The translations under genes were made by a program, and so were the position numbers. A stretch of 64,000 nucleotides of DNA from Agarophyton chilense (Eukaryota; Rhodophyta; Florideophyceae; Gracilariales; Gracilariaceae): the NCBI GenBank assembly GCA_030374765.1, contig JARGXX010000098.1, positions 558,001 to 622,000 of the forward strand, in the 5' to 3' direction. Numbering within the stretch: position 1 is the first letter of the stretch; the number at the start of each line of letters is the position of its first letter. Of the stretch, positions 18,500-49,304 are shown in pieces. The notes below the pieces were generated by a model, which saw nothing but the letters and a program-made list of their open reading frames with translations, searched no databases and had not been told where the DNA came from.

Positions 18500-19081
18500 T
18501 AGATTGGTGATCCCACAATCTGTATTAACGTTTCCTTTGGTTTCCAGGTGATGATGTATTTAAATCTTTCGTTTATCTATTTGGTGGATGTTTTTGCTGC
18601 ATCAATATTGTTGGAAGAAAATAGTCCGACCCTTTCTTTTCAATCTGCTACACTCTAGCAGACAACTCCCTCTCGTTGAATCTCGATTATTTCCATGCTC
18701 TGACCATTCGATGTTCTCGCTTTTTTTTAATTTCAGTCTTCTTGCACAGATTGCTACCCCTCACATCATGCATCTTGAAAACCCGAGACGGCCTTCAACT
18801 ATCAAATATCTCTTGCCTATTCTTCTCCTCCCGCCATTATTTGCACCTAGATTGAACCGTCCCCCCTCCAATCTTGCCAACTCCCATTGCCCCCGCTAGC
18901 TTCTCATTTTACAGTAACGTATCCCTCGACCCCAAATGCCTGAGAACGCCTGCTCACTATTATCGCATACGCTCGGATGTCGAACTGAAAATACGAACTT
19001 TCCCTGTTCACGACTGCAATTGATCCCCGTTCGTCTGGTCGAAGCTTTGGAGTATACGGTTTTCTGATTGGGAGTGTGCCT
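18500..19081. other. Flanking DNA left of the large transposon
   Basis: No gene or repeat identified. Sequence 19,082-19,085 (ACGT) directly abuts the transposon end and matches the 4 bp on its other side. Confidence 0.5.
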
Positions 19082-19085
19082 ACGT

Positions 19086-19105
19086 CAGTGTTCTCGGAAT
19101 GCTAG
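19086..19105 (+). repeat. Left terminal inverted repeat of the large transposon
   Basis: CAGTGTTCTCGGAATGCTAG, 19 of 20 bases matching the reverse complement of 37,025-37,044. Subterminal CTAG-containing motifs follow up to about 19,280. Confidence 0.8.
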
Positions 19106-19301
19106 TTCAGTGGTAAAAAAAGGACGAATTGAAATGACCGAAAAACCCCTGAATTTATCCAAATTTGGAGGTGTTTACTTCCGAAATTATTTTCATTCGT
19201 TCATTAGTGCTAGTTTGTATGGGAAGGAAAACTAGCACATATCTGCAGTTTTTCTAGTTTTGATGGAGGTAAAACTAGCGTGAATCTTTCTGTCGCCGCA
19301 G

Positions 19302-22016
19302 TTTAGGTCCATTGGTTTCGCCCCCTCCACCATCTTCGATCCCCACAAACGCTTCTCCGCAACCCTCTTCCAGAAAGACGCAATCCATGTCCTCAAACAA
19401 CAGCTCGCCCTCGCACACTTCAAGAACACCTTTTTCCACCCCATCTCCCAAACATCCGCCTCCGGCTCCCCCACCTTCGCACACCCCATGGCAGCCACCC
19501 TCGGCTCAAAAGTCGTCCCCGCACTCAAGACCGCCATCATGCAGTCCACAAAAGATAACATCGTCTGGCATCTCCCTCACTCCACCGGTATCGACTCCTT
19601 CATCGGCCTCGTCCAAATCTACTCCCACAAGTCCTCTACCTCTCTCAAATCTTCTTCCATCACCTCCTACCCCCTCCACATCACCCTTCTCAACTTCTCC
19701 AACTTCTTTCGCCGCAAATGCATCTCCGACAATCTCACACTCCTCGGCTATCTTCCCACCTCCTTCACCCCAATCAATCCTTCTCCAGATGCAGATATCA
19801 TCACTCATTCCTCCTCCATCCCTCGCCAAACAAAAATGGAACTCGTACAGCAGACCATCTCCTCCCTCCTTCAACCTCTCTTCTCTTCCGCCCTCCCCGG
19901 TTTCCCTTTCCGCGACGCAGGCGGCGTTCTTCGTCAATGCCACCCCATCATCGCCAGCTACTGCGCAGACGTTCCTGAGGCAAAGGATATTCTCGCCATC
20001 TTCCAAGGCACCCGCCCCCAGCACCCCTGCCACAGATGCTCTGTCCCTCGCTCACAACTCCACCAACACTCTCACGCCCATCCCCCTCGATCTCTTCCCC
20101 TCACCCTTGCAGCCCGCAACAAACAATTCACCCTCCTCAAGGACTCCGAAGCAGCTCTCCTCGCCCGCAAGCCAAGAGTCTCGCGCAACTTCAAGGAACA
20201 AGCTCTCCAAGCACTCCACTCCCTCTCCCTCGCAAAATACCCCTCCCTCTTCGAGTCTTACCCCCCTTTCAACATCACCCCCCTCCTCACCCCATACAAC
20301 ATCTTCCCCTTCGAACCCCTCCACAACTTCCACCTCGGCGTTTCCAAACTCATCAAGCTCGCCGCCATCGAACGTCTCAGATCAGAACACCTCTTCACCA
20401 CCATCAGCTCCACAAACTCCCGCCGTTCCTTCCACTCCGTCCGCACCTCCATCCTAAAGCACTCCAACTTCATCCTCACCGCCATCGAAAATCATTCCCC
20501 AGCTACCGGCCTCCACATCGACTTCTCTACTTCCGAAAGCGGGCAGTCCCTCAACGGCTTCTTCACAACTGACGGCGTCCGCCGCATGCTAGAAGCAAAA
20601 GACTACTGCGCCCTCGACATGGCCTTCCCCTTCATCGGCGCCTTCTTCGACCGCTGCTGTGACGAAGCCAATTCCGCTCCCATCACAACTGTCTTCTCCA
20701 AGTACACAGACCTCCTCCTCACCTCCATGTGCTACAACTCCGTCCCCGAATGGACCACTTCTCTTCTTGCCAAACTCGCCTCTCAAATCCATTCCTTCAA
20801 GCACAGAGCTGTCGATGTTCTCGGTCCATACCATACCTCCAACCTTGGCACCCTCAAATTCCACCTCCTCGATCACATCGTAGATGACATTAGACGCTTT
20901 GGGCGTCTCCACTTCAACGATGCAGGCATCTTCGAACAAGCCCATACCCTCTTCAAAGCACATTACTCCCGAACCTCCAAGCGCAGACCCACCGCGCACA
21001 ACGAAACCATCCGTGCCATCGAACGCTCCGATGCCGTCAACAATTGGATTTCTCTCTCCGCTGATCCTTCCGTCACCTCATCCTCCCATGCCCCTCCTCC
21101 TCCCTTCCAAGCCCGCAAACCAGGTTTCGTCCGTGATGGCAAGCACACTTCCTTTTCCGATCTCATCACCGCTCACAAATTCCTTCGAGCAAACCCCCAC
21201 TCAACAATCTCTTCCCTTCAGGACCTCTTCTCCCCAGACACTATCGCCATCATCTCACAGATTGGAACCCTCGCACTCCCCTCCTTCGTCACACTCACAC
21301 TCGAAACACTAGCTCTCAACCAGGACTCCCCCACTCTCCGCCAAACCCGTCTCACATTCGTCAATTCCGCATACGTCGTCGGCGGCTTCACCCCAACCCT
21401 AGACGACTACATCGCCGATCGAAACGAGCTCGCCGTCAAAGATCCCCCTCTCCCACTCATTCAACGTATCTTCGCTGCTCCCTCCTTCGGTGCCTCTCAA
21501 ACCCCAAAGTTCTCCCACATCCTCGTTGCCGGTTCCAGCTTCTCCAACCCCACTCCCACCGCCTGGGTCTGCAAGCTCAACTCTCTTCTTCGCTTCACCA
21601 CCCCTTCTTCCCCTCCCACTCATAACGAGTTCGCCTTCGTTCAGTTCCTCGAACTCGTTCCACCTCGGGATCAAGTCGATGTCTCTCTCAATTGCATCTG
21701 CCTCCGATGGGCAACAGTCGACGAACAAAACCACACCGCCCACCCCCTTCCTATCTCAAACACTTCCAACTCCGACAACGTCTCCCCCTGGTTCGGCCTC
21801 GTACCATCCTCTTCCATTCTCGGCCCCGTTCATGTACTTCGCCAAAACTACCCCGCACCCCCTTTCACCCCTCGATTGCAGTGGCGCTTCCATCGATTTT
21901 ACCTCAACAGATTCTACCGAGACCCAACTGCCAAGCCCTACTTCTCCAACACCACCACTGGTGGCACAACACCACCACTGGGTGGCACCCATAATAATAC
22001 CTCCCAAGGCACATGA
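19302..22016 (+). CDS. Plavaka/KDZ-like transposase
   Basis: Open from 19,302 to the TGA at 22,014-22,016. The first ATG in frame is at 19,488 (842 aa), but the ~60 codons before it look coding (DPHKRFSATLFQ, LALAHFKNTFFHP), so a short 5' exon joined at the CCGCAG acceptor ending 19,301 is likely; I could not fix its donor. Family landmarks: VQIYSHKSSTSL, YPLHITLLNFSNFFRRK...LLGYLPT, HPIIASYCADVPEAKDILAIF followed by PCHRC, FEPLHNFHLGVSKLIK, and KFHLLDHIVDDIRRFG...FEQAHTLFKAHYSRTSKR. This order matches transposases of Plavaka and related CACTA-type elements. Where relatives have an Asp in the first motif (YxDKT-like) this copy has His, so activity is doubtful if that Asp is catalytic. AATAAA at 22,020 follows the stop; the gene converges on the 910-aa gene. 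Confidence 0.75.
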   Translation, partial: FRSIGFAPSTIFDPHKRFSATLFQKDAIHVLKQQLALAHFKNTFFHPISQTSASGSPTFAHPMAATLGSKVVPALKTAIMQSTKDNIVWHLPHSTGIDSFIGLVQIYSHKSSTSLKSSSITSYPLHITLLNFSNFFRRKCISDNLTLLGYLPTSFTPINPSPDADIITHSSSIPRQTKMELVQQTISSLLQPLFSSALPGFPFRDAGGVLRQCHPIIASYCADVPEAKDILAIFQGTRPQHPCHRCSVPRSQLHQHSHAHPPRSLPLTLAARNKQFTLLKDSEAALLARKPRVSRNFKEQALQALHSLSLAKYPSLFESYPPFNITPLLTPYNIFPFEPLHNFHLGVSKLIKLAAIERLRSEHLFTTISSTNSRRSFHSVRTSILKHSNFILTAIENHSPATGLHIDFSTSESGQSLNGFFTTDGVRRMLEAKDYCALDMAFPFIGAFFDRCCDEANSAPITTVFSKYTDLLLTSMCYNSVPEWTTSLLAKLASQIHSFKHRAVDVLGPYHTSNLGTLKFHLLDHIVDDIRRFGRLHFNDAGIFEQAHTLFKAHYSRTSKRRPTAHNETIRAIERSDAVNNWISLSADPSVTSSSHAPPPPFQARKPGFVRDGKHTSFSDLITAHKFLRANPHSTISSLQDLFSPDTIAIISQIGTLALPSFVTLTLETLALNQDSPTLRQTRLTFVNSAYVVGGFTPTLDDYIADRNELAVKDPPLPLIQRIFAAPSFGASQTPKFSHILVAGSSFSNPTPTAWVCKLNSLLRFTTPSSPPTHNEFAFVQFLELVPPRDQVDVSLNCICLRWATVDEQNHTAHPLPISNTSNSDNVSPWFGLVPSSSILGPVHVLRQNYPAPPFTPRLQWRFHRFYLNRFYRDPTAKPYFSNTTTGGTTPPLGGTHNNTSQGT

Positions 22017-22103
22017 TCCAATAAAACAGTCACCGCTACTTTTCTTCCATAGCCGACCCCCATCTTGCTCCACCTCCTTACCCCCTTATGCCCCCGTACC
22101 TTA

Positions 22104-24836
22104 TCACTCTCCCACTCCTTGCCTACTCCCCAACGCTAAGCGCTTGAACCGTGGTTCTTCTGGTCCACATGACGCTATATAGCAATCTAACACCGCTCCA
22201 AGTCTTCTCGTGAGATTCTCCATGAAAAACTCCTCCTTTATCGCCAGATAGATTTTCTCTCTCGACGGTATCCATAGCCCAACCGTCGCGATTCTCCCCT
22301 TATTCCCACTCACATATCTACGATTCCCTCCACAGAATCCATCATTCTCAAACTCCTCAGCATACTCATCCTTCACCATGTTCCAGGCAACCCTCAATAT
22401 GTCCTCAACAGCCAGTGGCAGAAACCTCCCAAACAGCGTCGAGAACAAAAGTTGCCTTTGGCCTCCCCGCCCAACGTCTCTATCCATAGTGGTCACCACA
22501 CATCCAATCCATGCATCAAGTCGCGCAAGATGCATCACCGTCCCATCCACATACTGCCTTTCTCCATTTCTGTGACTCTCTACCGCGTAGCCCATAAACT
22601 CCTCCAACACTTTCAACGACACCTGATTTCGAAAATACATATCTGCCTCACCAAAGTCCTCCAAGTTCTCAGACACCTTCGATCCAGAATAAGTAATATC
22701 TTCAATCGCACTCGTTCTCCACGCACACAGCTTACCTCTCCCATCCTCCCCCGACCCCATCAACTTCTCCTGTGCCTCCTCAATCTGCTTCTTCAACTCC
22801 ACCCAAAGCTCCGTCCGTTCAGTCACCTTAGCTCGTTTCGCGATCAAATCATATCCAAGCATGGAAAACAGCTTATCACGCGCTGCTCGCTTCCGCACCC
22901 CAACCACATCGCTCAATGCTTGCTTCATTCTCTGTCTCAAGCACCGATCCGCACTTACATTTTCCACGCACTCCTCTCTCCTCCCCGCTTCCCTTATCGA
23001 CTCCCATTTCTCTCCCACTAACTCAGTCTCTACCACGTGCTTCAACAACAAATGGCTCCCGCCCTCTGTCGACGGCGTATACGGTCTCATCTCATATGCA
23101 ACCTCAATTGGACATCTCGGAACCATTTCCTTCTCTCCCACCATAAACATACTTTCCTCCCTACTCTCCCCAACGGCCTCACTTCTATTCTTCCAGCTTC
23201 GACCCACATTCTCGGTGTCGAAGCAAAGTTCCGATGCCTCCAGTTTTGCACAATGAAGAATCCTATCATACACACGACGTGCAAATCCATAAAAGCATTC
23301 CTGCACTGCAATGTCATACTTTCGTCGCCGCGTCACGCCTCCCTTCCCCCTCCCTTCCCCAGCGATTCTACTTTTCAAGGCCTCCCTCAAACTCTCAATC
23401 AGCACATTCTGCTGCTTCATTTCCTCCCTCGCCCGATCCAGCTCCGTTTGGGTCATTTTCAAACTCACCATCACACTGTAGCTGTCTTCCTTCATACGTC
23501 CCATTTGTCCCTTCAACACATTCATCTTCTCAATTATCATCGACCGCGGCAACAAACCTATGTCATCATCATTTGCTTCAGCTTCCACTATACGGACGGC
23601 GTTCTCCACGACATTTAAATTCGCATTCTCTCCGTTCTCATTATTCCTTGTGAATACAATGTTTCTCCTTACTCGCATACCTTCCGGCGTCCTTCGCTTT
23701 GCGTTCACCTCAAACCCTTCAACTCCCAAACCCACCCCTCTCCTCGGTGGCAAACGCTCGACATCTTCTCCCTGATGAGAAAGAACTGCTGCTCTTCCAT
23801 CGCCTTTCTCCCCTGAACCACGTGTTCTCCCTCCAGCAAACCCCCTTCTCCCCCCCTCACTCACATGCACTTCTCTGATTTCCCTTTCGTCTATCGCTCT
23901 TCTTCCTGTAACTCGAACACTCCCCATTCTTTCCCTTGCACGCTCTCTCCTTTCTTCCACGTAATCCAAGTTCGCCCCCTCCCATCTTTCCGCCTGTTCC
24001 CCCGCGGTAACTCCAACACTCTCTCCTTCTGTTCTCTCTCGAACGACTCTTGCGCCCGCGATTAGACCACTACTGGGTCCACCTATTCTACCCTCCCCAT
24101 CACGGCTACTCTCTATTCTCCCTTTCTGTATCTCATCATCACCGTCCTCTTCCCTCATACCCGTAAACGATGCCCCTGCTTCTTCAACGCCTCTGAGGCG
24201 GGATCCACGTTCTCCGATCATTCTCTCTCCCTCCTTACGCCCCTTCGTCCTCTCATTCGGAATCTCTTCACCTCCTTCAGGTGCAGAGCATGGATTTACC
24301 GGCTCCACATCAGCTGAAGACGTGAGTACAGCACTTAGAGTCCGCTCGGATGCATCCCCTCTCCTTGTCCTCCCTGGAGCTCTGCTCGCCGTCCCCCGCA
24401 ATCCACTTCTAGGTACACGCGTGCGGTTGCTTCGCACGCCATCCCGTTTTCCATCGCCGCTCCGCACCATCTCTCCCGTAGGCGACGTGATTTGCTCCGT
24501 ACGCGACGTGATTTGCTCCGCACTCTCCTCCGTCACCGTCTCCTTTGCGCGAACATCCTTTCCTTTGCCTCCACTCGCCTCTCCTTCCCCACCATCTTGC
24601 CTTGATCTACCTCTCAGGCGCACGCCTCCCTTCTCTCCACTCGCGCCCTGGAGCCTACGCCCCTTGTCCCTTCCGCCCTCCGCATCCCCTCCATGCCGCC
24701 GTGATTTTGTACCGCGCCCGCTAGTGTTCTCACTTCTCGATTTGCGCTTCGGAGCCATGGTTGAAGAGAGAGAGCGATCGTGGTATGGTCTTCCACGCGT
24801 TGCAATGCGATGGATGGGAGAGAAGCTTCGAAACAT
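22104..24836 (-). CDS. 910-aa coiled-coil protein of unknown function, transposon-encoded
   Basis: Continuous minus-strand ORF. The first ATG is at 24,836; the ATG at 24,758 (MAPKRKSRSEN, good context CAACCATGG) is the likelier start because it begins with a nuclear-localisation-like basic cluster. Residues to about 430 are Arg/Gly/Glu-rich and disordered. A coiled coil follows (MNVLKGQMGRMKEDSYSVMV through REALKSRI), then a globular C-terminal ~400 residues containing YDIAVQECFYGFARRVYDRIL and LWVELKKQIEEAQEKL. I do not recognise the fold. It sits between transposase and methyltransferase-SET and is transcribed in the same direction as the latter. A DNA-binding or accessory transposition role is a guess from context. 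The clean 2.7-kb frame suggests recent selection. Confidence 0.7.
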   Translation of the reverse strand: MFRSFSPIHRIATRGRPYHDRSLSSTMAPKRKSRSENTSGRGTKSRRHGGDAEGGRDKGRRLQGASGEKGGVRLRGRSRQDGGEGEASGGKGKDVRAKETVTEESAEQITSRTEQITSPTGEMVRSGDGKRDGVRSNRTRVPRSGLRGTASRAPGRTRRGDASERTLSAVLTSSADVEPVNPCSAPEGGEEIPNERTKGRKEGERMIGERGSRLRGVEEAGASFTGMREEDGDDEIQKGRIESSRDGEGRIGGPSSGLIAGARVVRERTEGESVGVTAGEQAERWEGANLDYVEERRERARERMGSVRVTGRRAIDEREIREVHVSEGGRRGFAGGRTRGSGEKGDGRAAVLSHQGEDVERLPPRRGVGLGVEGFEVNAKRRTPEGMRVRRNIVFTRNNENGENANLNVVENAVRIVEAEANDDDIGLLPRSMIIEKMNVLKGQMGRMKEDSYSVMVSLKMTQTELDRAREEMKQQNVLIESLREALKSRIAGEGRGKGGVTRRRKYDIAVQECFYGFARRVYDRILHCAKLEASELCFDTENVGRSWKNRSEAVGESREESMFMVGEKEMVPRCPIEVAYEMRPYTPSTEGGSHLLLKHVVETELVGEKWESIREAGRREECVENVSADRCLRQRMKQALSDVVGVRKRAARDKLFSMLGYDLIAKRAKVTERTELWVELKKQIEEAQEKLMGSGEDGRGKLCAWRTSAIEDITYSGSKVSENLEDFGEADMYFRNQVSLKVLEEFMGYAVESHRNGERQYVDGTVMHLARLDAWIGCVVTTMDRDVGRGGQRQLLFSTLFGRFLPLAVEDILRVAWNMVKDEYAEEFENDGFCGGNRRYVSGNKGRIATVGLWIPSREKIYLAIKEEFFMENLTRRLGAVLDCYIASCGPEEPRFKRLALGSRQGVGE

Positions 24837-25080
24837 TCTGCTTCCAAAAATATACCTCCACCCTTTTCGTGTTCTCAGAAAACCCCCAAACTTTTCAGAT
24901 ATTTTAAATATGCGCTCGAACGCACCAGATATTGGGAAAGTATTCTCCTTCGGTGTACATGACTTTCCTTTAGCATATGTACTACGTCACGCTTTGACGT
25001 TATATGTAGCGACAAACATAGTAAAAGCCCACAATATCTGGTACACTACAATGAAGTAAAGTAACAAAAGCGATGCACTT

Positions 25081-28000
25081 TTAATCGATTACTATGACTG
25101 GCGTGTTATTCATACTCCAGATATACTCTGTCCAATAATCCGCCAACAGCTCCTCTCCTATTTCTATATCTCGAATTGCTTGCACAGAAAGCAATCTATA
25201 ATCTCTCAACTGAAATGGGGTCCGCCCCGTCCCCGGAGTTCTGATGACCCGAACATTTGCAGTTCGGCGTCTCATTAACCCTTCTTCAACCGCATCCCTG
25301 TCCCTATCCCCTTCCACATACTTGGGGTCGTTAATTGTTCCCCCCAAGCAAAATGGAGCACGGACAATCCACACCGGAATAAGAGACACCCCACTAATTC
25401 TTCCTGGTAGCTTGTGAAACACTTCCCCTCGGACGCTTATCTCCATCGCGTACTGCCGAAAGCGATCAGCAGTCGCTTTCAATAGCCCCCCTCCGTATGC
25501 CTTATGAACTTCCTTCCGCTTTGAAAGATTATGGTACACCAAAGTCACGTAAAAGTAACAAACAGTCTCACCTTGTATCACCCGGCGTGTTGTGTACACA
25601 CCAACTCCAGCACTCGGGTGCCTTATCGTCGACTTTGCAATCCGACAACCACATACTGTCGCCTCCACTGCCAGAATAGCATTCCAATCCAACAGTGACA
25701 TCTTTCCTTGAAAACTTCTTGGCCACTCATACAGCGCCTGCCGTCGCCCAATCTCCGGTATATTCTTATCCTGCCATATGGAGGATAGAAAATCCACGAT
25801 ATGGGGTGGAAACATCTGATGCTCGGGAAACCCGGTAGGTGTTTTCCAGGACTTCGAACGCTTTATGACGACGTCCGGAAACAAGCATGTCACTCGAGTC
25901 ACAGCGTTCCGAACATCTTGCGTTATATGAATGTCCGTCTCGTTGTTCCGCATGCATGACGCAAATTTCACTGTAGCGACGCGCTTCGCATGAGCAAAGC
26001 ACTGCGGATCTGGCTCACACCCTAGAAACAGACGGTGCTTTTCCAGTTCCATGCATGCCATGGCCGTTGAAAATGTTCCGGCGAAGAGGTCCACCACTAT
26101 GTCTCCGGGCTAAGAAAACCTACTGATGAGCTCCTTCAGCAAAGCGCGTGACTTCTGTTCCGCCCGCACCTTCTGATACGTAACTGCTCCTTTGGCATTC
26201 TTCCTTCTCCATAGAAGTGTTTCACCATTCGACATGGGAGGCACTTGGTCAATCACGCTATGGTAACCCGGATATCGCGATGGTACATAGCTGAAGTTCT
26301 CATAGTTCACCATGCCATGTTGTTCGGCGTAGGACAACACGCTGCGAACTCCATGAATGGCGTACTCTGTTCCGGGAAACAGGGAGCACGAACTACGTCC
26401 GGGATTACGCATCGGATTGCCTTGAGAGCGAATGAAGTGCAGCTGGACCTTGTCCACGACAAACGACCTGCTCTTCTGTCCATTCTCATCCTTTGCACCA
26501 ATTCGACCCAACACTTCTTTCCATTCGTTCACCTGCTCAATCGCGCAGAATATAACGAAATGCCCTCCCGGACGCAGAAGTTTAGAGATGAGCTTCGCCG
26601 TCTTCACCATGTCTTGCCGGTTAAGAACGTCGTACCAGCTGTTTTTCCTGTTCTTCTTCGCACGTGTATTATACGGCGGGTCCGTGAGAACCAACTGCAC
26701 TTTCCCTATCGGAGAGACCCCATTGCTGCGCAATGTCTCGTCAATCTCCACCAGGTTCTCGAAAGTACAATTGTACATTCGACAGTGCTTATCCATCTCC
26801 GACTCGCACTTTTGGAGAGACATTATATCATCCAGAGAGGTAAGGTCGTGAGGCGGCAGAATATCCACCGACTCAGATTCGACCGACTTTGGTCCAGCTG
26901 TGGAAGAATGCTGACCAACACCCATGTTCTCTTCCTCATTCCCGGTCCCACCCTCCACTCCCTCTCCACCCTCCACCGCCGGAGCCTCCGAATCTTTCTC
27001 AGGGGGTACAACTTCTATCTCGTCTTCTTCCATAACCATAGTAGGTTCCGCCTTTGTCGCAGCCACCACTTCCACCTCCACACTCCCTCGCAGCTTTAGT
27101 GGCGATATGTATTCCGAGATGGTAGAGATAAGAGAGTTCGAGAAGCAGTCGAATCTCTCCGCAAACACTCTAGGCAAAGTGAATGTAAACGGTTTTAGAA
27201 CGTCCCATCTTTCCGGAGCTGATATAGAGTAAAGCTGCTCATTCACCACCACTTTGTGCAGGTCAGGGAGAAACTCTTTGGCCAACATACGAAGTGGAGT
27301 GTCAACGTACTCCGGCAGGTTCCACGCCCATGGGACGACATCCTCCTCCAATAAAGTACGGTTTCTACCAGGAAGGAGTCGTTGGGCCATTTCCTTGTGA
27401 GAGAACCCATCCCTTCTGTTTCCGATTGCCTGGAACTGCATATCAGAATATCGTAGATGGATAAAGGGCAAAACCATGAATTCCACGCCAGGGAATCCCA
27501 AATACTGGGCGAAGCTGTCCCACGCGTTATTGACGAGTTGCACACCAAAGCCCACACGCTGAGCTACTGATTTGTCATAAATCGCCACCTTCGAAAATGG
27601 CGTATCGTAGGTTCTGTCCCGCTTTCTTCGCTTACGGGAGACTCTTCTCTTCTCCATAGAGACCGACTGAATACAAATGAGGAACAGCAACCTCTGGAAC
27701 ATTGTCAGGAAGTCGGTCGCGAATGGAGCCCGGCTTTTGCTCGCCTTCTTTCGGGTTGTATCCAGACCTTTGAAGAACTCTGTCAAAGTGACATTCTTCG
27801 GGATGCCCTTCAACTCCACCGCCTCGTACGCGTTCCAAAAGTCCCTCACGCGCCTATCTGGGTCCCCATCCCTTATATCCAGCAACCTCGCCGAGAAATA
27901 ATTCTGACAGTTCGAGCCCCTCATTCCTACAACTCGGAGCTCATCTTCTGTGTAATTGGTGTGGTCGGGACCTAGGAGAGTATAAAAAAACTTCGCGGTC

Positions 28001-28212
28001 TCCGGTAGGATGTGGCGATTGGCAATTGCGAAATCGATGAATGCAGTGTGCCCCACTTTTCGCGGCTCATCTTCCTCCCGCCTCGTTAATGCGTAACGAT
28101 CACGCAAATCCAGACACGCCCTGATAACTTCATCCCCCGTACCAAACAGTTTACCCATTTCGAAGGTGTCTGCCCCAGGCGATGAAGAAGTTCTCGTGGG
28201 TTCTGGAGCCAT
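25081..28212 (-). CDS. Beta-class DNA amino-methyltransferase fused to a SET domain, with one in-frame TAG
   Basis: Start ATG at 28,212. The upstream 700 codons hold a novel N-terminal region, an acidic linker (~400-470), and methyltransferase motif IV TDPPYNTR at residues ~510-516, then LLRPGGHFVIFC. A TAG at 26,110-26,112 follows LLKELISRFS; the frame then continues PGDIVVDLFAGTFSTAMACMEL (SAM-binding motif I) and EPDPQCF. DPPY before FAGT is the beta-class order of N4-cytosine/N6-adenine methyltransferases. The last ~175 residues resemble SET: GVGVYTTRRVIQGE near the start and IRDIEIGEELLADYWTEY near the end, with INDPK and TANVRV where the usual NHS-pN motif lies. Expected role: nuclear DNA methylation plus lysine methylation. 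The TAG lies inside a conserved helix-motif I junction, so it may be a nonsense mutation or readthrough site. A 60-nt in-phase intron ending at TTTTCTTAG is also possible but would remove that conserved helix. Confidence 0.8.
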
Positions 28213-28385
28213 TTATGTACATGTTCAAACAACCTCACGGGCGGTCGTCACGAGAGCCTGAGTGAAAGAGAGCAGCGGGTGCGGGTGGGTGCGGGTGGGT
28301 ACGGAAAGATTGTGAGTACGGTTGAGGAGCTCGCACGGAAGACAGGTTGTTGCGGAACGACTTCGCAGCTATCCTGGTTGCATTC
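28213..28385. promoter_or_regulatory. Upstream region of the methyltransferase-SET gene
   Basis: 173 bp between the start codon and the palindrome edge, with a G-rich repeat GTGCGGGTGG at about 28,278-28,300. It must contain the minus-strand promoter; no clear TATA element is seen. Confidence 0.4.
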
Positions 28386-29267
28386 TGTCGGCCGTCAGAG
28401 CTGCGCTCCGACTTCATCGGGGGTCCCGATGAAGTCCCCACGCACCTCTGTCGGCCGACATAATACATATAATTTTGTAATTTTTAGGACGCCCAGGTGT
28501 ACACGGTGCATTCTGTCGGCCGACAGAGGTGCGCTCCGACTTCATCGGGGGTCCCGATGAAGTCCCCGCGCACCTCTGTCGGCCGACATAATACATATAA
28601 TTTTGTAATTCTTGGAACGCTCAGGTGTACACGGTGCACTCTGTCGGCCGACAGAGGTGCGCGGGGACTTCATCGGGACCCCCGATGAAGTCGGAGCGCA
28701 CCTCTGTCGGCCGACAGTCGACCAAAATCTCAGAAACGCATCATGCGTGATGTTATGGCGTATTTGTCGGCCGACAGGGGTTCCCTGCGACTTCATCGGT
28801 CCACCGATGAAGTCGCAGCACACCCCTGGCGGCCCACAAATGGCCCGAATGGTGTCCGTAAAACATGTTGGTGACTTGTCGGCCGACAAATACGCCATAA
28901 CATCACGCATGATGCGTTTATGAGATGTTGGTCGACTGTCGGCCGACAGAGGTGCGCTCCGACTTCATCGGGGGTCTCGATGAAGTCCCCGCGCACCTCT
29001 GTCGGCCGACAGAATGCACCGTGTACACCTGAGCGTTCCAAAAATTACAAAATTATATGTATTATGTCGGCCGACAGAGGTGCGCGGGGACTTCATCGGG
29101 ACCCTCGATGAAGTCGGAGCGCACCTCTGTCGGCCGACAGAGTGCACCGTGTACACCTGAGCGTTCCAAAAATTACAAAATTATATGTATTATGTCGGCC
29201 GACAGAGGTGCGCGGGGACTTCATCGGGACCCCCAATGAAGTCGGAGCGCACCTCTGTCGGCCGTCA
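28386..29267. repeat. 882-bp hierarchical palindrome with parS-like 12-bp palindromes
   Basis: Seven ~75-bp units lie at 28,386-28,460, 28,514-28,588, 28,642-28,716, 28,765-28,838, 28,937-29,011, 29,065-29,139 and 29,193-29,267. Each unit is itself an inverted repeat: TGTCGGCCGACA, then GAGGTGCGC, a core GACTTCATCGGG-CCCGATGAAGTC, then the mirror. Units 1-3 mirror units 7-5 exactly about a centre at 28,826.5 (paired coordinates all sum to 57,653), and the ~53-bp spacers are reverse complements too. The start of unit 4 pairs with a lone TGTCGGCCGACA at 28,877-28,888. There are 12 exact copies of the 12-mer and 3 variants. It lies between two divergent genes. Confidence 0.95.
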
Positions 29268-29360
29268 GGATATTTTTAATTTTTTAATTTTATTTTCTTG
29301 TATCGCCTACCGAGCCAATAGGCGTGTTTGTGATGGAAACAGACAAGGAGTTTCTTGAGT

Positions 29361-29411
29361 TTGAAACTAAGCGGACGTAGCTCAGGTTGAAACTAAGCGG
29401 ACGTAGTTCAC
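29361..29411 (+). repeat. Tandem 24-bp direct repeat upstream of the ParB-dioxygenase gene
   Basis: Two copies of TTGAAACTAAGCGGACGTAG followed by YTCA, back to back. They sit between the palindrome and the gene start and could be a promoter element or factor-binding site. Confidence 0.6.
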
Positions 29412-29557
29412 GCTGATTGCAACGAACTGCTCTCGGGAGTGTTCCGGATAGTCGCCACCAAAGGAGCTCGATCTAATACGTCTTAGTCTGTATACCATAA
29501 AAGGCTCAAAGCGCTCTGCGACCATTTGCAACCTCGACCGACTACGATCCGATTCAA

Positions 29558-32500
29558 ATGATGACTCGAGGCAAAGCGAAAGCGAGGGGTACTCCGCGGG
29601 GTACTCCACGCGCCACTCCGCGAAAAGCTACATCGGGAAACAATCTGGCTGGGGGGGATAGGGTGGCGTTGTTCCTGGCGGATGGGACAGGGAAGAAGAA
29701 GAGTACTATGGTTGGCACTGCGGAGTTGAGAGGTGTTGGGGGCAGTGGAGCGGCCGGAAGGCGCTTTGCAGAGCGATGCATGGCCATTCGTTGCGCGAGT
29801 CTGCGAAGCCGGGAGAGGACTTGGTGGCCATCTGGAGGACTGAAATTAAGGAGGGGATCAACTCCAAGTATCCGTACTCCTTCAAGGGAGCAGAGGAGCC
29901 GCCGGAGTTGCTGAAGGATATGGTGTCGGCAGGTATATACGCATGGGATACCTCGATGATGACACGCGTCTCCTCTGTGCTGACTCCAGGGCCTCCTCGG
30001 CCGGAGACTCCCAAAAGCGCGACCCCCTCGAAGGAGTCTGCTACGCCTTTGAGGGGGAAGAGGGCACAGCCAACAACAGTGCCGCCGGCCATGAAGCAAC
30101 CCGTCAAGCCGAAAAAGAGGGTGACGATAGTGGATGATTCTGATGAAGATGTTGTGGAGGTGGGGTCAGCGGTGAATGTACGCGGGGATTCGCACACCGG
30201 TCCCGAGTTGGAGTTGTTCGATGACGGCGATGCCGTTCCTTCGCAGGAAGTGGATAGGACTCTCGTGGAAAAGAAGATCTCTGTTTCAGACTATGACCAG
30301 TGCCGCTTGATTGTGGACATAGATGACATACAAATCCCCGAGAAGACTGTCAGAAGTGTGAATGCGGAACACAAGGCGGCGACGATGGCAAAGTGCAAAA
30401 CGTTTGGCTGGCTTGCGTCGGCAGGGTCGATTGCTGTTGCCATCGTCGGGGGAATGGAATTAGATTTCAGTGAAATTGTTCACAATGGGAGGGTAGTGGT
30501 GCCTGTCATACTCATTGACGGTCATCACCGCGTCTTGGTTCTGCGAGATCTGAAGAATGATCCCTCTGAAGGGAGAAAGTGGTTGGAAATTGTGCGGTCT
30601 CTTGATGTCGTTCTTTGGAGACGAAAGGACCGGAAGCCTTTATCGCTGAACGAAGTGCTCGGTCTTGGTAATGTACTCAATGAAATGAGTTCAAATGTGT
30701 TGAAGATGAGTTTCGCCGACAAGGTTCATTCGACAGTGTCCTTCATTTGCAACTTGATTGACGATAAGAGAACCAAGTTGGCTGACCTTACTCCGACACG
30801 GATAGCTGGGGCGCTGAAGACGAGCGAAGCTATAGGAATCTACAGCTTGCGCCACTTGAATCGCTATGCGACTCTTGGGTTGAAATTCGTCAGGAGCGAA
30901 GGTCTCCTGGAGTTCTTTGAGAACGTATGCAAGGAGGGTCCAGTGCTAACGCTTGCGCATGTGTCGAGTGACTTGTTGTTAGGACTCGAAGACGAAATAT
31001 TCCGTTTCGCAATCCGTTGTTTGCAGCTACATGTGAGGGTGAGGATGGGTTCTACGGGAAATATGGGACGTTTCCAGGAGACGCGAAAGCAGTTCTTTCA
31101 ATGCGCCATAGGAATGTTCCAACTATGCGAAAGGGCGGGAAAGGAGAAGGGTCTGACGGCGGGGAAGGTTCTAGACAGCACAATTGTGATGGGAAAGAAC
31201 GAGGTGTCTTTAAGGGAGTACCTTTGCATGCAAACGGCGAAGATGGAGCTCAGTGGTCCGAAGCGGTTGTGGCCGGGGTTGGTGTCGAAGAGGATGAAAA
31301 TCGCACAAAGGCGGATTGAAGGCGGTCTGAAAGTGAGTCTGGCGTCCCCAAGTGCGGAGAAGGATGTGGTGGAGGTGCAACCTTCTGTGAATGTTCCTTC
31401 GTCTAGTGCTGGGGAGTCTGTACCCCACCAGGAAACCGTGGTTCCCAGACGCATCACACGAACTAGAAAAGGTACTGAGCGCGGGCTGGATGCTGCGGGT
31501 GAGAGGGTGATGGAACCTAGACAGAGAAAGGGGAAGAGAAAGGCTGTGGTCATTAGTGATGATGAACGCGAGTATGAACAGCCTTTAAAGCGGAAGAGGA
31601 AGAGGAGAAAGACGGTGGGCACATCTGCGGCTCAAATACCGGCTGACGTGGTGGATGTGTTCAAGAAGATGAGCAGAAAAGAGCTGAAGCGCTTCTTGAA
31701 GGAACATGTACTCAATGCTTTCTCATCGAGTGAGGATGAACTGGATGATGACGGGGGGCAGGGTGCATTTGTAGGGGACGAAGAGGAGGAAGGTGTGCAA
31801 ATGCGTGGCTTCGAAGACAATAATCCGGAGGGTGTTCCGAAGGGGCTGAAGAGGGCGGGACCGTATGCGGGGGGGTCGGGTATGTCGTGGGTGTACTTGG
31901 TGAATGCACTTCCGAGCGAGTGGCCGGCGGGTGAAAATGGAGTGAAGCATCAGCACCTCTGGATGCAGATGATTTACCTACGGAACAAGCACAGGGCGGA
32001 GTGCTTGAGAGTAGAAGACTTGAAAAGTGTGCACCATGCGGTTTATTGGCGTGCTGCTCATAACAGGGACAAGGAACTGGGTTCCACGAAAGAACCGGTT
32101 CTTGGGGTGATTCTACCGACGAAGAACCACCCTGTGAATGAAGAGCAGGCGATATGGATGGCAGCAATGGAGAGGGATGACTTGGCCCGCGAGTACTTCG
32201 CGACTAAGAGAAGTGAACTGATGGAGAAAGGATTTTGTGTGCTGGAAGAGTTTGCCACGGACGAGGGGATGGCGGATGAGGCGAAGAAGAAGGGGGTAAA
32301 CTTCGATGGGGATGTGACTGGGACTTTGCTAGAGTTCTTCCAAACGGATTTCTTGAACCAGCCGGACTTGACGATTGAAGGGAATAGAAAGAAATGGGAC
32401 CCTATAATCATCGCTGGTGAGGAGAGAGACGCTGGAGATAGAATGAAGGGAGTTGGGCGGTACATTACGACGAAGGTGGGGATTGTGGATTCTGTGGAGG

Positions 32501-33243
32501 GGGACGAGAACAACGTTTTAATGGTGAGGAAAAGGGCATTGTTGGATGCAAGGTTTGGACAGATTGCGGCCGCTCTTCGGTTGTGCAACAACAGGTCGGG
32601 GAAGAAGAGGATGTATGCCCCTGAAACAGGGGGGCGAGTGCTGTGTACGGCGGAGGGCTGTCCAAGGCAGGTGTTACATACGGACTTTCGAGGACTGACC
32701 GATGCCGAGAAGAACGTCGGAGAGGTTCCAGGGGTCTTCATGATGGCGTCGGGAGCGAGTTCGTTTATGCTTTGGGTTTGTGAGAGGTCACATAACATGT
32801 ACGTGCCCGACGACAGGAGCTTGAAGCGGCTGTCTCGGACGATGGTAGTGAGGAAGTTCAGGATTCCGCCGTACTCCATTTTTATTGGAAGAGGAGATGT
32901 GTTTCATGCTGGAGCTGGATACGAGGATGCATTGGTTAAGGAAGTTTGCATGAGGTATCACATGTACTTGGTACCGGATGGGTACAAGCTACCGGACGCA
33001 GTGCACAGGAAACCAGCATTTCGGCCTAAGTTCGAAGAGGATGATTCCAACAAGGGTGATGATGAAGACGTTCAGGTAGATGAGGATGAGAAGTTGGATG
33101 AAGATTATAAAATGGAAGTTGTTGAAAGTGGGGAAGAGGAGTATGAAGAAGAGGATGATGAACCTGGGATGGGTCTCAACTCGGCTAACACAGATGGAGA
33201 CTATGAAGACGGCGGTATGATAATGGATGACGACGACGACTAG
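29558..33243 (+). CDS. ParB/sulfiredoxin-like plus 2-oxoglutarate/Fe(II) dioxygenase protein
   Basis: The main frame opens at 29,776 (1155 aa; stop 33,241-33,243; AATAAA at 33,267). A convincing N-terminus (MMTRGKAKARGTPRGTPRAT) lies in another frame from 29,558, so a small intron or a 1-nt shift near 29,700-29,830 is likely. Residues are numbered from 29,776. PVILIDGHHRVLVLRDL (~243-259) is the ParB/Srx signature. It is followed by a helical block (LADLTPTRIAGALKTSEAIG...LRHLNRY) resembling the ParB HTH. Basic NLS-like KRKRKRRK is mid-protein. The C-terminal part has H968-T-D970 (VLHTDFRGL), H1044 (GDVFHAGAGYED) and R1060 (MRYHMYLVP), the Fe(II) triad and 2OG arginine of a double-stranded beta-helix oxygenase. 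The tail is acidic. The subfamily (TET/JBP, AlkB or other) is not fixed. It diverges from the methyltransferase-SET gene across the palindrome. Confidence 0.8.
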
Positions 33244-33266
33244 ATAGTTTCTGTTACCTATTGAAC

Positions 33267-33272
33267 AATAAA
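33267..33272 (+). terminator. Polyadenylation signal AATAAA
   Basis: 24 nt downstream of the ParB-dioxygenase stop codon; canonical hexamer. Confidence 0.6.
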
Positions 33273-33324
33273 GAGTACAATTTGAGGTAATATGTGGAGT
33301 AGTCCCCTTTTCTTGTAATAGTGA

Positions 33325-34510
33325 TCAGTCGTCTTTCAGTAGAAACTCCTGAACAACTGGATTGAAACGCGTGAGAGTAGAACTTGCTTTCACTTTCTCA
33401 TAGAGAATGAAAACTGTCGAAGATATCAAGATTACGACATCCACTGTGTTACCAAGCAGTTTAGGAACACCAGGTCCCTCAATGCGAAAGGTGGAGAAGG
33501 TGGTTGAAGAGGGTGCAGCGAAAGTGCATGCCGACAGCCTCATACCGAGTAGTCGGAAGGTTACATCCGGAATGGATATGAATAAATCCTGTTGAAAAGA
33601 GTGGGAGAGGGCGCCAAGCACGAGGTTCATAAAGGAGGTTCTCCGTGGTTCCGGGGTCATTGTGAACTTTGTGTTAAGATAGGACTCTGGAAAGAAGGAT
33701 ATAGAAACAAGCTGGAGAAGATATGCCAAAGCGCCAACTGCGGCCCCTCATGTGGAGAAGGCGATACAATTTGTCTTCACGTCTAATGAAAGGGTACCGC
33801 TGACTGGAATGAAGCGGTGAACGAGGAAAAGTATGGCGTTGAGGGGGATGAGTAGAGTAAGGAGTAGAGCCCCGAATTCCAGAAAGGCTCGTTTCTTCCA
33901 GGTATATCGCTGGTTTGGATTGAACAGCGTAGTTTGTAGAGACCCGTATAACGCGTTTATACATTGTACGCCTCCTTCGATTATGAGAATGTGTACCAGG
34001 CTTTGGATAGAACACCTCAATAGCGTTATGAGAATGACCCGAAGGAGAGAGTTGAATCTGAATGGAAGCGTATATTGCAGAGCTGGGTCTATAACTCCGA
34101 AGAGTGTAGTTAGTGTGATTGTGAACGTTAAGGTCGATGTGAAGAGTTTTTGCTAACTGAACATCTTAGTAAAGGCGTTCCGGTTTGCTAGTCTTCCTTG
34201 TACGCTGCACATTGGTCACGATATGATACCGCTCTTTGAACAGTTGTTTCAGAGTATCTTGCTGCTGTAGGGAGTTGCGAGTGAGGAGCCTCCTGGTGGT
34301 CGTACAAATGTCACGAATCTCGTCCATGAGCTCGTCGGTGATATGATTCTGGAACCCTCTGCCTTCGTCCACATTCTGGATGGTTGGAAGTTTGATTTGA
34401 AGGACTTCGTCGATCGTGATAACCGTTAGTTGTGGAAGAATATCCACAGCTGCTGAGCATTGGACAGAAGAACCAGGGGGTAGGGAAAGACGTGCTTCGT
34501 AGCGCTGCAT
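33325..34510 (-). CDS. 355-aa multi-pass membrane protein, three exons
   Basis: I infer exons 34,510-34,211, 34,152-33,798 and 33,737-33,325, with introns 34,153-34,210 (58 nt, GTGCAG...GTTAG, branch-like TTTACTAAG) and 33,738-33,797 (60 nt, GTACCC...CCGCAG). All phases match: 300 + 355 + 413 nt gives 356 codons including the stop. Without splicing the frame hits TAG and TGA. Residues 1-100 are soluble (MQRYEARLSLPPG). Hydrophobic segments follow at about 104-125, 135-160, 190-213, 219-235 and 325-345, so it is probably membrane-embedded. No family is recognised. It converges with the ParB-dioxygenase gene inside the transposon. A membrane protein is unusual cargo for such an element; it may be a captured host gene. 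Confidence 0.6.
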
Positions 34511-34945
34511 GATTGAGAAGGAGAGGAGAGTGTTGTGTAGAAAGGTATTTGTGAGGGACTGGATACAGTATGTTGAGCGCAATGAAGTAGGGTAGTCATC
34601 GGTGGATATATATATGTAGTGATCAGAGTAGTTGTTAGGTTGTTGCCGTATCTCTGTCGCGGAGTATGAATAATTGTTATGAATGAAAACCTTTGATAGG
34701 CTGTAGGAGCGGTTATTGGGTACAGACTTAATTGCAAAGTTGGAAGATTTATGAAGAGTGGTTGTAGTGATGATTTGTGATGTACGAAGCAATTCTTAAT
34801 ATCGTTTCATATATTCTGACGTGGTGTCGTGCGGATAGCAGTCTTTATCGAGGCAGCGAAGGAGATGGACATATGCTTTAGAAAGGAGGACTTGTTTTTA
34901 TTGGAAGGGGTATATGAATGAAGTACTACCCATTGAGGAGGACGT

Positions 34946-35749
34946 TCAAGAAGTTCGTATGGAAAGGGGCGGGGTCACGGTTTCCAATGGATTTTTGGGC
35001 GTTAGAAACGTTGTAGAAGTAGACGTTCCGGAACTCAAAGTCTGAGAACGAGGTGGCGAACTGTGTAAGTGTTTTTCCGTGGGCCAGAAGTTTTGGAGTG
35101 TTTCTGTTGTATTGTAGGCGATTCCTGTTTCGGATGTGACGATGGCGAGGAGCTCCTTCATTATGGTTGAAACGACTGTGCGGTGTTGTACTGCAACTTC
35201 GTGCATTGTGATAAAGCCATAAGAGGAGCCGACGAGATTAAAAGCTGATATCCATACGATTTTTTCGTAGTAAGCTTTAGAGAAGGAGGCCTGGTCGACG
35301 ACATGACAAGTGAGGCCTGCGGTACTGAGGCGATTGGCGAGTACGGGAGCCCATTTGCCGGTGGCAGTTGTGAGACCATGGGGACTGAAGAGGGTGACAC
35401 CATCCTCGGGGGGTGCGTTAAGGGAGGGGACGGCGAGGAAGAGAACGGCTTTGGTGCAGTTTTGGAGCCCATAGGTTGAAAGAAGTGGGAGAATGTTTCC
35501 GTTCTGAAGGAAGACCAGATCCTCTCTGCGGGAGGAAGGGCAGAATTGAATGACGTCTTCGAGTGAATGATTTCTGCCGCAGAAGAGAATGGGGCCGTCG
35601 GAGATGTATTGCACGGAGATGAATTCTTGAGTTGAGAGAAAAGCATCTTGTGGGGTGCCGTTGTTGCGAAGCAAAGTGCCGATTCGGCCTCTGCCGACCA
35701 TAACGGCTGGGTCGGAGGTGCAAGGGATGGCAGTGAGAGAGTCGGTCAT
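34946..35749 (-). CDS. Ketopantoate reductase (ApbA/PanE)-like protein
   Basis: Single-exon ORF, ATG at 35,749 (context CAACATGAC), 267 aa. Residues ~18-26 (MVGRGRIGT) form a Rossmann-like GxGxIG. LVFLQNGN matches the QNG motif of the family. The C-terminal region KAYYEKIVWISAFNLVGSSYG followed by MKELLAIVTSETGIAY matches the helical ApbA_C domain (usual WxKlxxNaxxNal...E). It is shorter than typical ~300-aa reductases, and the first strand of the Rossmann fold is compact. An NADPH-dependent oxidoreductase role is inferred; the substrate is unknown. It sits within the transposon ends, same strand as the membrane protein, so it is cargo or a captured gene. Confidence 0.6.
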   Translation of the reverse strand: MTDSLTAIPCTSDPAVMVGRGRIGTLLRNNGTPQDAFLSTQEFISVQYISDGPILFCGRNHSLEDVIQFCPSSRREDLVFLQNGNILPLLSTYGLQNCTKAVLFLAVPSLNAPPEDGVTLFSPHGLTTATGKWAPVLANRLSTAGLTCHVVDQASFSKAYYEKIVWISAFNLVGSSYGFITMHEVAVQHRTVVSTIMKELLAIVTSETGIAYNTTETLQNFWPTEKHLHSSPPRSQTLSSGTSTSTTFLTPKNPLETVTPPLSIRTS

Positions 35750-36140
35750 GTTGATTGCGAAAGGTGTTTGGAGTGCGGTGTGCTTGGAATTGAAGAAGTG
35801 GTGTGGGTGGCGAGTGTGGAGATGTGATTAAATAGAGAAGGAGTATGTTTGTGGAGGAATGGGTGTTAGGGGTTTTTGGGAAGGAGGTTAGATTTATGAT
35901 ATTGAATGGTGTTTATTGTGTTAAAAGTGTAGGAGTGTGTGTTGTTATGGAAGTCATAACGGGAAAGAGGGCTTATGAGTAATCGGCGGTTTGTGTTACG
36001 AATGAGTGTGATTTATTATAAATGAGAAGGCTATGAAATTGGGAGTAGTGAGGGAGCGCTGAACATGATAGAAGGTGTAGGAATATGGATGGGAGTGTGT
36101 GAGTGAGCAATGAGTGGGGTGAAGGGCATCCGGAGCGTAG

Positions 36141-36792
36141 ATGCAGGGGTGTACGAAGGTACTGAAATTGGGCGAGCGCGCGCGAAAAGCGGGTCAAAAA
36201 AAGGAGATAAAAGGCCGGAGGTGGGCGAGAGCATTTTCGAGGGGGGGTGCTGTGTGGGAGGCTGCGGGTACTACTGGCCGCACTAAGGTGAGTGCGCTTG
36301 CGCTTGCGGTGGCTCTTGTCGATAGCTTTCGCGGGCGTTGGCGATGTCGAGCGGATCCCCATGGGGCTGGAGATGGGGAAGCTGTGGAGGGCGGATGAGG
36401 AATTGAAGAGGAGTGTGAAGGTGTTGGAAGTGCACATGGAAGGGGTGGGGGAGATTTGGGGTGCGCGGAAGGTGTTGAAGGAGGTGGGAGAGGAGAGGGG
36501 GAGAGCGAAAGGGTCGCCGGTGACGCTAGGGAGACGCGGGGAGCCGGCTGGGATGAAGAAGGGGAGAGAGGAATGGAAAGGGGGAGGAGTTGGAGAGAGT
36601 CGGCTGAAGAAGAGGAGGGTTGGTAAGGATGTGGAGAAGAAGGGTGGGAATGTGTGTGTGGTGTGGCAGCCGTGTGTGAGGAACTTGAGCAGTGGGGAGG
36701 TGGACGAGATTGAGAATGCGGTGGTGGACTTCTTCAACCTCAAATACCCTCCCGGTGGAACGCTGGAGCCTAGTAAGCAAAAGGGCCAGTAA
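36141..36792 (+). CDS. Small basic protein, two exons
   Basis: ATG at 36,141. Exon 1 36,141-36,287 ends TAAG before a strong donor GTGAGT. A 64-nt intron (36,288-36,351, ending GTCGAG) joins in phase to 36,352-36,792, giving 195 aa. The product is Lys/Arg/Gly-rich (KKRRVGKDVEKKGG) and ends with a more structured stretch (VVDFFNLKYPPGG). No family is recognised. It is the last gene before the right end of the transposon. The opposite-strand Ser/Pro-rich ORF is a shadow. Confidence 0.4.
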
Positions 36793-37024
36793 TGAGGTAG
36801 AAGGTACTGACGACTGCCTTGGTATGGATCTCCACCTAGAGCGGTCAAAAGTGACCAGTAAACTGACAATGCAGATTAAACTGCATTAAGTGGTCAAAAC
36901 ACTAAGATGCATGGAGTTCTTATTTCCAAAAAAATTCTTTTTCAGGTGCCGAACTAGCGCAATCTGCAAAATTCTTAGATTTTTTGGCTTTTTATTTACA
37001 AAACTAGCTATCTAGCACACTTAT
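36793..37024. promoter_or_regulatory. Right subterminal region of the transposon
   Basis: AT-rich DNA with ACTAGCGCAATCTGCA at 36,954 and further CTAGC motifs at about 37,003, 37,011 and 37,022. These resemble left-end motifs (ACTAGCACATATCTGCAG at 19,230) and are likely transposase-binding sites. Confidence 0.5.
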
Positions 37025-37044
37025 CTAGCATTCCGAGAACACAG
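37025..37044 (-). repeat. Right terminal inverted repeat of the large transposon
   Basis: CTAGCATTCCGAGAACACAG, the inverted partner of 19,086-19,105 with one mismatch, followed by ACGT. Confidence 0.8.
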
Positions 37045-37344
37045 ACGTATGAAAACAAGTCAATTATATCCGTAAATCACAGTTTTTGATGTGGATCCTG
37101 ACCGTCTGACTGATGATATTCCAGTTATCATCTTGCTTTACGATGACGATACCCTTCGTCAAGTGATTGAGTCTAGCGTCATCAACAAGTGTGAGAACTT
37201 CGCCAAGTTGATGGGCATGTAGTTCCGTTTCGCCCAAATGACATATATTAAATTGAAGAAAAACTGGCTTCTATCCGGACCTCGGTACAATGGAACGATG
37301 ACAATTTAGATGTTGACATTGGTCTGATATTTGAACAACGTCTC

Positions 37345-47793: not shown

Positions 47794-47974
47794 CTGTATC
47801 GTCGAAGGCTGTGACTTTCCTTGTGAAAGTTAAAATTATTTTTTGAAGTTCGATAGGGAACGTTTTTTCTATAAGGCAATTATTGCACCATAGCGTGCCT
47901 GCATTGATCGGGCGGCTTTGGCTTCCTTTTAACCATTGGCGGACTTTGTTGTTCGGAAGACATGGGCGATAGAC

Positions 47975-49093: not shown

Positions 49094-49304
49094 CTAAAGA
49101 TTTGTTCCATCACAACTCACACAATCTCATGCCGAACACTGTCTGTGCGACTCCCAACAGCCTCTTGGTTTTGCACTCTAAGAAATGCTCGAGATGTCGC
49201 ATATCAGTAACAACCGAACACTTTGTAGCTAATATATTGACCCAATGACTTTATAAAACATCCCAAGCGGTCTACAATGCTAAGAATACTTATATGTGAC
49301 GTGC

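Follow-up and report, generated by a model that had tools for sequence, protein, structure and literature searches.

A recently active Plavaka-lineage transposon of the red alga Agarophyton chilense carries a predicted DNA methyltransferase-SET fusion, a putative ParB-like oxygenase gene and a palindrome array

The window analyzed here is a stretch of 64,000 nucleotides of contig JARGXX010000098.1 of Agarophyton chilense, whose genome assembly comprises 79.76 Mb in 135 contigs. It contains a whole copy of a transposon of the Plavaka lineage, 17,965 bp long, at positions 19083-37047 on the plus strand. The initial annotation, made from the sequence alone, had placed this element at 19086-37044, which is within 3 bp of the mapped ends. 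The copy is bounded by terminal inverted repeats (TIRs) of 23 bp, located at 19083-19105 on the plus strand and at 37025-37047 on the minus strand, which match at 22 of 23 positions, read CGTC(A/T)GTGTTCTCGGAATGCTAG and give the element the termini 5'-CGTC..GACG-3'. It is flanked on either side by a TA target site duplication (TSD), at 19081-19082 and 37048-37049. The outermost 250 bp at both ends (19083-19332 and 36798-37047) each contain five CTAG repeats, compared to a density of 1.5 per kb over the whole element.

The genes that had been named for this element, a transposase, a methyltransferase-SET fusion and a ParB-like oxygenase, are all present, but the copy is degenerate and all three are broken. 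The transposase gene (19488-22016, plus strand) is truncated at its N-terminus and encodes 842 residues, the methyltransferase-SET gene (25081-28212, minus strand) is interrupted by a TAG stop codon, in frame, at 26110-26112, and the ParB-like gene (29558-33243, plus strand) is out of frame in its first part and open from 29776. At 19305-19306, approximately 845 bp are missing, including the start of the transposase gene. Ten other copies, seven large and three short, were taken from the match lists and are labeled by their contigs. The missing segment is present in C117, C10, C2, C105a, C105b, and C69, whereas C68 and the three short derivatives that were read lack it, as the window copy does; this points to recombination between full copies and derivatives, or to a common origin of the two. 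C117 and C10 keep the transposase (1087 residues), the methyltransferase-SET protein (1043 residues), and the ParB-like protein (1228 residues) intact. In the eight large copies, window included, the respective frames are intact in 3, 4, and 3; when one extra locus per gene was added, this became 5 of 9 for methyltransferase-SET and 3 of 9 for the ParB-like gene.

The transposase, which measures 1087 residues in C2 as well, matches the Plavaka transposase domain PF18759 with an E value of 1.4e-22 in C117, over the cut-off, and of 1.4e-19 in the window copy. Since Plavaka was the sole Pfam family reported for the C117 protein up to E 5, the Plavaka half of the original "Plavaka/KDZ-like" label is retained and the KDZ half rejected. 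The reassignment agrees with Kojima 2025 in as far as the relevant passages of that paper shift Plavaka from KDZ to the EnSpm/CACTA side (PMC12730594). The same passages give a TSD of 2 bp for PlavakaA and of 2-3 bp for PlavakaB, and an exact 2-bp TSD was found in 9 of the 10 copies with both ends, the window copy included. They also give TGT..ACA and CATCA..TGATG as the termini of the two sublineages; neither was found at the ends of the 10 copies, all of which have CGTC..GACG, with TGT..ACA starting 6 bp inside.

The methyltransferase-SET gene forms, in the sister copies, a single frame of 1043 residues in which a DPPY/FAGT methyltransferase is indeed joined to a SET domain, both domains scoring over their Pfam cut-offs. 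In C117, the N6_N4 methyltransferase domain PF01555 (residues 505-742, corresponding to 25987-26700 on the minus strand of the window) scores 3.4e-18 and contains the DPPY and FxGT motifs, which in the window are found as DPPYN within 26668-26685 and DLFAGTFS at 26068-26091, on the minus strand. The SET domain (residues 869-1027, corresponding to 25132-25608, minus strand) scores 8.2e-5, narrowly over the cut-off (23.4 versus 22.4 bits). In an alignment of 45 sequences, DPP is invariant, and the SET residues G869, G871, N961, and Y1026 are conserved in at least 90%. When the profile of this alignment was searched against solved structures, the N6-adenine enzymes DpnA (1.8e-15), CcrM (1.2e-8), and MboIIA (4.4e-8) ranked first, and an N4-cytosine enzyme trailed at 0.012; with a single-sequence query, the N4-cytosine enzyme PvuII, at 0.0033, also came behind N6-adenine enzymes. 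The SET part of the profile matched KMT2C (1.2e-5), EZH2 (2.9e-4), and SETD8 (1.9e-3). It is therefore well supported that the protein is real and nearest to N6-adenine enzymes, and its sequence predicts DNA methylation.

A protein database search with this protein returned 120 relatives, 55 of which have both Pfam domains precomputed. A SET profile made from our own alignment matched 105 of the 120, among them 61 of the 76 that had not gone into it, indicating that the fusion is a family and not a one-off of this element. The relatives include a Chondrus crispus protein annotated as an adenine-specific DNA methyltransferase, with SET, and a Pyropia yezoensis protein without SET. In viral contigs, no relative was found with the single-sequence query, and the alignment query gave six weak methyltransferase matches at 21-36% identity. 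Among the best 25 of 34 rows reported by PADLOC were methyltransferases and a single mads_2 entry. One relative of each accessory protein (P0005 and P0009) is listed with four contigs, the longest 20,528 bp, which hints at a second host. Equal contig sizes were rejected as proof of linkage between relatives of the two genes, being weak evidence, and one equal pair (3,599 bp) is too short for both. For two different methyltransferase relatives, P0081 and P0093, the longest contig given measures 17,553 bp in both cases, and a single contig may therefore contain two such genes.

The gene at 29558-33243 encodes 1228 residues in C117, C10, and C105b. Its protein contains an IDGHHR motif (30514-30531, plus strand), which we take to be ParB-like, and further on HxD, distal H and R motifs (32674-32967, plus strand), which we take to be those of a 2-oxoglutarate (2OG)/Fe(II) oxygenase. 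HxD was found in all four proteins compared, and the distal H and R in the three that reach that region. The gene is the one initially annotated, and its reading as a ParB-like oxygenase is based on these motifs only. Pfam reported no match up to E 5, TET/JBP included, and the protein reads HTD where the PE type of TET/JBP has HxE. In the viral contigs, phages, and prokaryote genomes searched, no relatives were found. Just upstream of the gene, outside the palindrome array described below, two tandem copies of a 26-bp sequence are located at 29358-29409.

The methyltransferase-SET and ParB-like genes are divergent, and between their start codons lies a palindromic repeat array of 0.93 kb (28366-29291), in line with the shared palindrome proposed at first. 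Its units measure 128 bp, contain one palindrome each that can form a hairpin, and together make up a larger inverted repeat. One folded unit has a free energy of -44.9 kcal/mol (z -9.2); no Rfam match was found in the window. All 12 window occurrences of the 12-bp core TGTCGGCCGACA fall inside the array, between 28449 and 29204; genome-wide, the core was counted 487 times and its reversed control 5 times. The eight large copies contain 1 to 12 exact cores each. A test for extra conservation of the core counted spurious half-units, and its raw rates even favored the flank; it was given no weight in either direction. On contigs C1 and C2, for which the listing is complete, all six core clusters lie within 4 kb of element matches; two clusters on C3 have no element match nearby among the matches listed.

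To map the element across the genome, four probes were used: the left 1 kb, the right 0.86 kb, the methyltransferase-SET gene, and the ParB-like gene. Each gave at least 40 scored genomic matches at 96-100% identity, with first-look candidate counts of 307, 129, 70, and 69, respectively. Among the matches listed, 33 of 40 for methyltransferase-SET and 35 of 40 for the ParB-like gene were chained to another part of the element, always in the same order, with 8 loci containing all four pieces, 12 containing both accessory genes and the right end, and 22 containing two pieces; 31 left ends, 7 methyltransferase-SET genes, 5 ParB-like genes, and 5 right ends were unchained. In the sister copies, the order is constantly transposase end, methyltransferase-SET, palindrome array, and ParB-like gene. 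The exact 20-bp end occurs 178 times in the genome and its reversed control not once. Of the first 100 ends listed, 60 pair to form 30 TIR-bounded stretches, of which, judged by the gene matches listed, 11 contain both accessory genes, 6 only one, and 13 neither. Both ends are present in nine of the ten other copies, C69 being cut at its contig start, and all nine have CGTCAG..CAGACG termini. An exact 2-bp TSD flanks eight of them (TA, TA, TA, CA, AT, TG, TG, and AA), and C68 reads TG/TA.

The recurrence of gene order and ends across many copies confirms that the named genes within one TIR pair form a single mobile unit, and full copies sharing TIRs and genes do exist, C117 and C10 with intact genes. 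The alternative, that a transposon closed around unrelated genes by chance, would predict TIRs that enclose only the transposase, with the other genes at unrelated fixed loci. Short TIR-bounded copies of 3.0-5.9 kb do occur in the genome, and nothing else is left in favor of such a nest; among the matches listed, however, 33 and 35 of 40 accessory genes sit beside other element parts rather than at fixed loci of their own, and the same order and the 178 exact ends against none in the control leave it virtually no probability, so that we consider it ruled out. C117 and C10 differ by only 0.17% outside the array, and the largest pairwise divergence among the eight large copies is 2.4%, indicating a recent burst of transposition. 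It is therefore well supported that the element is a recently active cut-and-paste transposon, moved by a Plavaka enzyme. Some further loci were observed in passing. C12:334864-374563 is TIR-bounded, spans 39.7 kb and includes both accessory genes, and an insertion is probably nested in this copy; C77:805346-812375 contains two methyltransferase-SET copies on opposite strands, at most ~7 kb apart; and C79:833600-853400 contains a short derivative and, ~10 kb away and oppositely oriented, the right end of a second copy.

Three derivatives, of 4.6, 8.9, and 11.0 kb, are without the two accessory genes and much of the interior is missing, but all have kept the array. Likewise, seven of the eight left-end-only matches on C1-C3, among the matches listed, have array sequence within 4 kb, the eighth being an element of 3.7 kb, and three short copies on C2 and C3 hold 3, 5, and 9 exact palindromes. 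Retention of the array in copies without the genes suggests a cis-acting site, and it could also reflect common descent or palindrome-driven deletion.

We infer that the accessory genes form a chromatin module that works via the array. As best explanation of the whole, we propose, with about even confidence, that the element manages its own chromatin, with anti-silencing as the net effect. The ParB-like/2OG protein would bind the palindrome array, and the array would serve both as promoter and as the place to which the two accessory proteins are recruited and from where they act. N6-methyladenine would be written over the element by the methyltransferase, its SET part would add a histone mark there, and the oxygenase would remove or alter a methyl mark. 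The likeliest net effect would be that the genes and ends of the element are kept accessible. The gene-less short derivatives would be moved in trans, mostly keeping the array, as expected of a cis-acting site.

Several observations weigh against this anti-silencing proposal. No profile search gave a match for the ParB and oxygenase labels, and two structure predictions of the protein gave a mean predicted local distance difference test (pLDDT) score of 39.6 and 34.1, with an unreadable fold; a fold search with the first of these low-confidence models returned mostly helical V-ATPase rows and was not used. The nC79 and nC99 derivatives have an identical array-to-right-end junction, so that the three derivatives are related and array retention does not represent three independent events, and a 3.7-kb copy with exact ends contains no exact TGTCGGCCGACA core. 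Selection was examined as the ratio of nonsynonymous to synonymous polymorphism (pN/pS) among 8-9 copies, counting stop changes as nonsynonymous and setting aside the three short derivatives and rows with more than half gaps. For methyltransferase-SET, this ratio was 0.77 and not significantly below 1 (p 0.15). Finally, C-to-T singletons were found at 99 of 2000 CpG sites versus 188 of 5815 CHH sites (odds ratio 1.56, p 0.0007), and because this excess is only modest, strong CpG silencing from which to escape is not evident.

The shared junction, the copy without an exact core and the methyltransferase-SET ratio count in favor of another explanation, namely that both genes are captured cargo without benefit to the element and that the array is a palindromic breakpoint, retained mechanically. 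Large palindromes are known breakpoints. However, neither accessory gene is broken in the two youngest copies, relatives of the methyltransferase-SET protein at 27-49% identity keep the catalytic motifs, exact palindromes are still present in the three short copies mentioned above, and the ParB-like gene is constrained, with a pN/pS of 0.58 (p 0.0004) compared to 0.67 (p 0.04) for the transposase. Passenger genes are therefore an unlikely explanation. A 910-residue frame gave 0.76 (p 0.26), and four right-end frames pooled gave 1.00. Constraint would be masked by neutral changes acquired since insertion, which probably account for much of the variation between copies.

The module could also act in the opposite direction, with the methyltransferase-SET protein silencing its own copies by a methyl and a repressive histone mark, thus limiting copy number, and the oxygenase lifting the block in a window of activity. 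A writer and a presumed eraser that diverge around one array would fit such self-restraint, as would the SET matches to EZH2 and SETD8. The better SET match is KMT2C, an enzyme that sets an activating mark, and the near-identical copies and 178 exact ends point to a wide and recent spread, which makes self-restraint improbable. Even less probable is that the methyltransferase and 2OG enzyme work in series, as in phages, and make an unusual base that shields the element DNA. Such base-hypermodification pathways in phages are noted in the relevant part of Kojima 2025 (PMC12730594), and a DNA methyltransferase and a putative 2OG oxygenase are kept together in many copies. Against this, no phage or viral relative of the ParB-like protein was found in the sets searched, and Pfam saw no further modification enzyme in the frames scanned, which were all except two at the right end.

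In a more tentative reading, less probable than the anti-silencing proposal, the element could contain a self-contained epigenetic switch of a type without a described precedent, in which a ParB-like oxygenase reads a parS-like array in the shared promoter while the element is also marked by a writer acting on adenine and histones. Marks would then be both written and edited by one transposon, genome-wide, on its full copies as well as on those derivatives that bear the array. If the inferred module works, a single transposon brings a DNA-mark writer, a histone-mark writer, a probable eraser, and a mapped candidate cis-acting site. Control of its own chromatin by selfish DNA would then be directly testable, as intact young copies, broken copies, and gene-less array-bearing copies coexist in one small genome, and it would suggest that in red algae a mobile element can methylate adenine.

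The remaining frames of the element are less clear. The 910-residue frame (22104-24836, minus strand) has no Pfam match above cut-off and is full length in the window copy only, among eight, thus it is probably not one conserved gene and we consider it doubtful. A frame of 267 residues (34946-35749, minus strand) measures 274 residues in four of the eight copies, with a pN/pS of 0.92; the corresponding C117 frame shows a weak likeness to ketopantoate reductase, over the C-terminal half of that enzyme (PRK06249 of NCBIfam at 8.6e-4 and ApbA_C at 0.044, neither reaching its cut-off). Farther downstream, outside the element, the window contains a Mutator-like (MULE-like) transposase frame (42461-44173, plus strand; 3.9e-4, below cut-off), uninterrupted host frames at 47936-56186 (a WD40 protein, LTV1-like, Rxt3-like, and UBX/thioredoxin-like), and a retroelement integrase frame (62542-63693, minus strand; rve 4.8e-10). 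As to the host, nine matches to light-harvesting genes scored above the cut-off, so that a fungus was rejected; the 18S sequence contains a stretch typical of red algae, the Chondrus and Pyropia relatives of the methyltransferase-SET protein point the same way, and the lack of interruptions in the host frames next to the element is in keeping with this.

Several known systems resemble the element in part. The CACTA/Spm protein TNPA binds repeated 12-bp sites and counters methylation; its sites are subterminal, whereas the array described here is internal, and that system has no oxygenase. Giant Plavaka transposons were reportedly described in red algae (Bostrychia moritziana) by Petroll et al. 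in 2025, and are alike in Plavaka transposase, large size, accessory genes, and red algal host. The relevant passages of PMC12477816 also cite Petroll et al. for giant red algal EnSpm elements that carry accessory genes. Our literature search, which covered work other than the Bostrychia study and supplementary files, found no published element that combines methyltransferase-SET, ParB/2OG, and a palindrome array. Within this scope the full combination, for which novelty was first claimed, appears to be new, but algal transposon proteins with ParB and methyltransferase parts had already been reported, according to the same passages of PMC12477816.

In the Plavaka-flanked giant repeats of Amoebidium, a Plavaka transposase is accompanied by accessory genes that contain few introns and form long clusters (PMC11244446); the repeats reach up to 50 kb and carry tyrosine recombinases as cargo, and the passages of that paper on these repeats mention no methyltransferase-SET. 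Oomycete HarbingerS and MuDR elements carry SET genes (PMC12730594) and so share a SET domain in a DNA transposon, but belong to other superfamilies, and the relevant passages mention no joined DNA methyltransferase. A bacterial-type amino-methyltransferase that works in a eukaryote is N4CMT of bdelloid rotifers, described in the relevant part of PMC8885841 as a host gene acting on N4-cytosine, whereas the present enzyme is carried by a transposon and nearest to N6-adenine enzymes. The fungal TET+ Plavaka/KDZ transposons are, like the present element, DNA transposons with a short TSD, of 2 or 3 bp; they carry a 2OG oxygenase, putative in the present element, that is thought to act on methylated DNA (PMC12730594, relevant passages). 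They have PlavakaB termini and TET/JBP, with HxE in the PE type, whereas the element described here has HxD, other termini, and writers as well. An accessory protein of Sola1-1 in Ectocarpus, with ParB-like and N6A/N4C methyltransferase domains, has been suggested to mark its own element, as stated in the relevant passages of PMC12477816. Sola1-1 has the two domains in a single protein, alongside a Sola-1 transposase, whereas in the A. chilense element they are on separate proteins, the methyltransferase being joined to SET and the putative ParB-like part to an oxygenase-like one. By analogy, the mode of action of the A. chilense element would be akin to the self-marking proposed for the Sola1-1 protein and the fungal TET+ elements.

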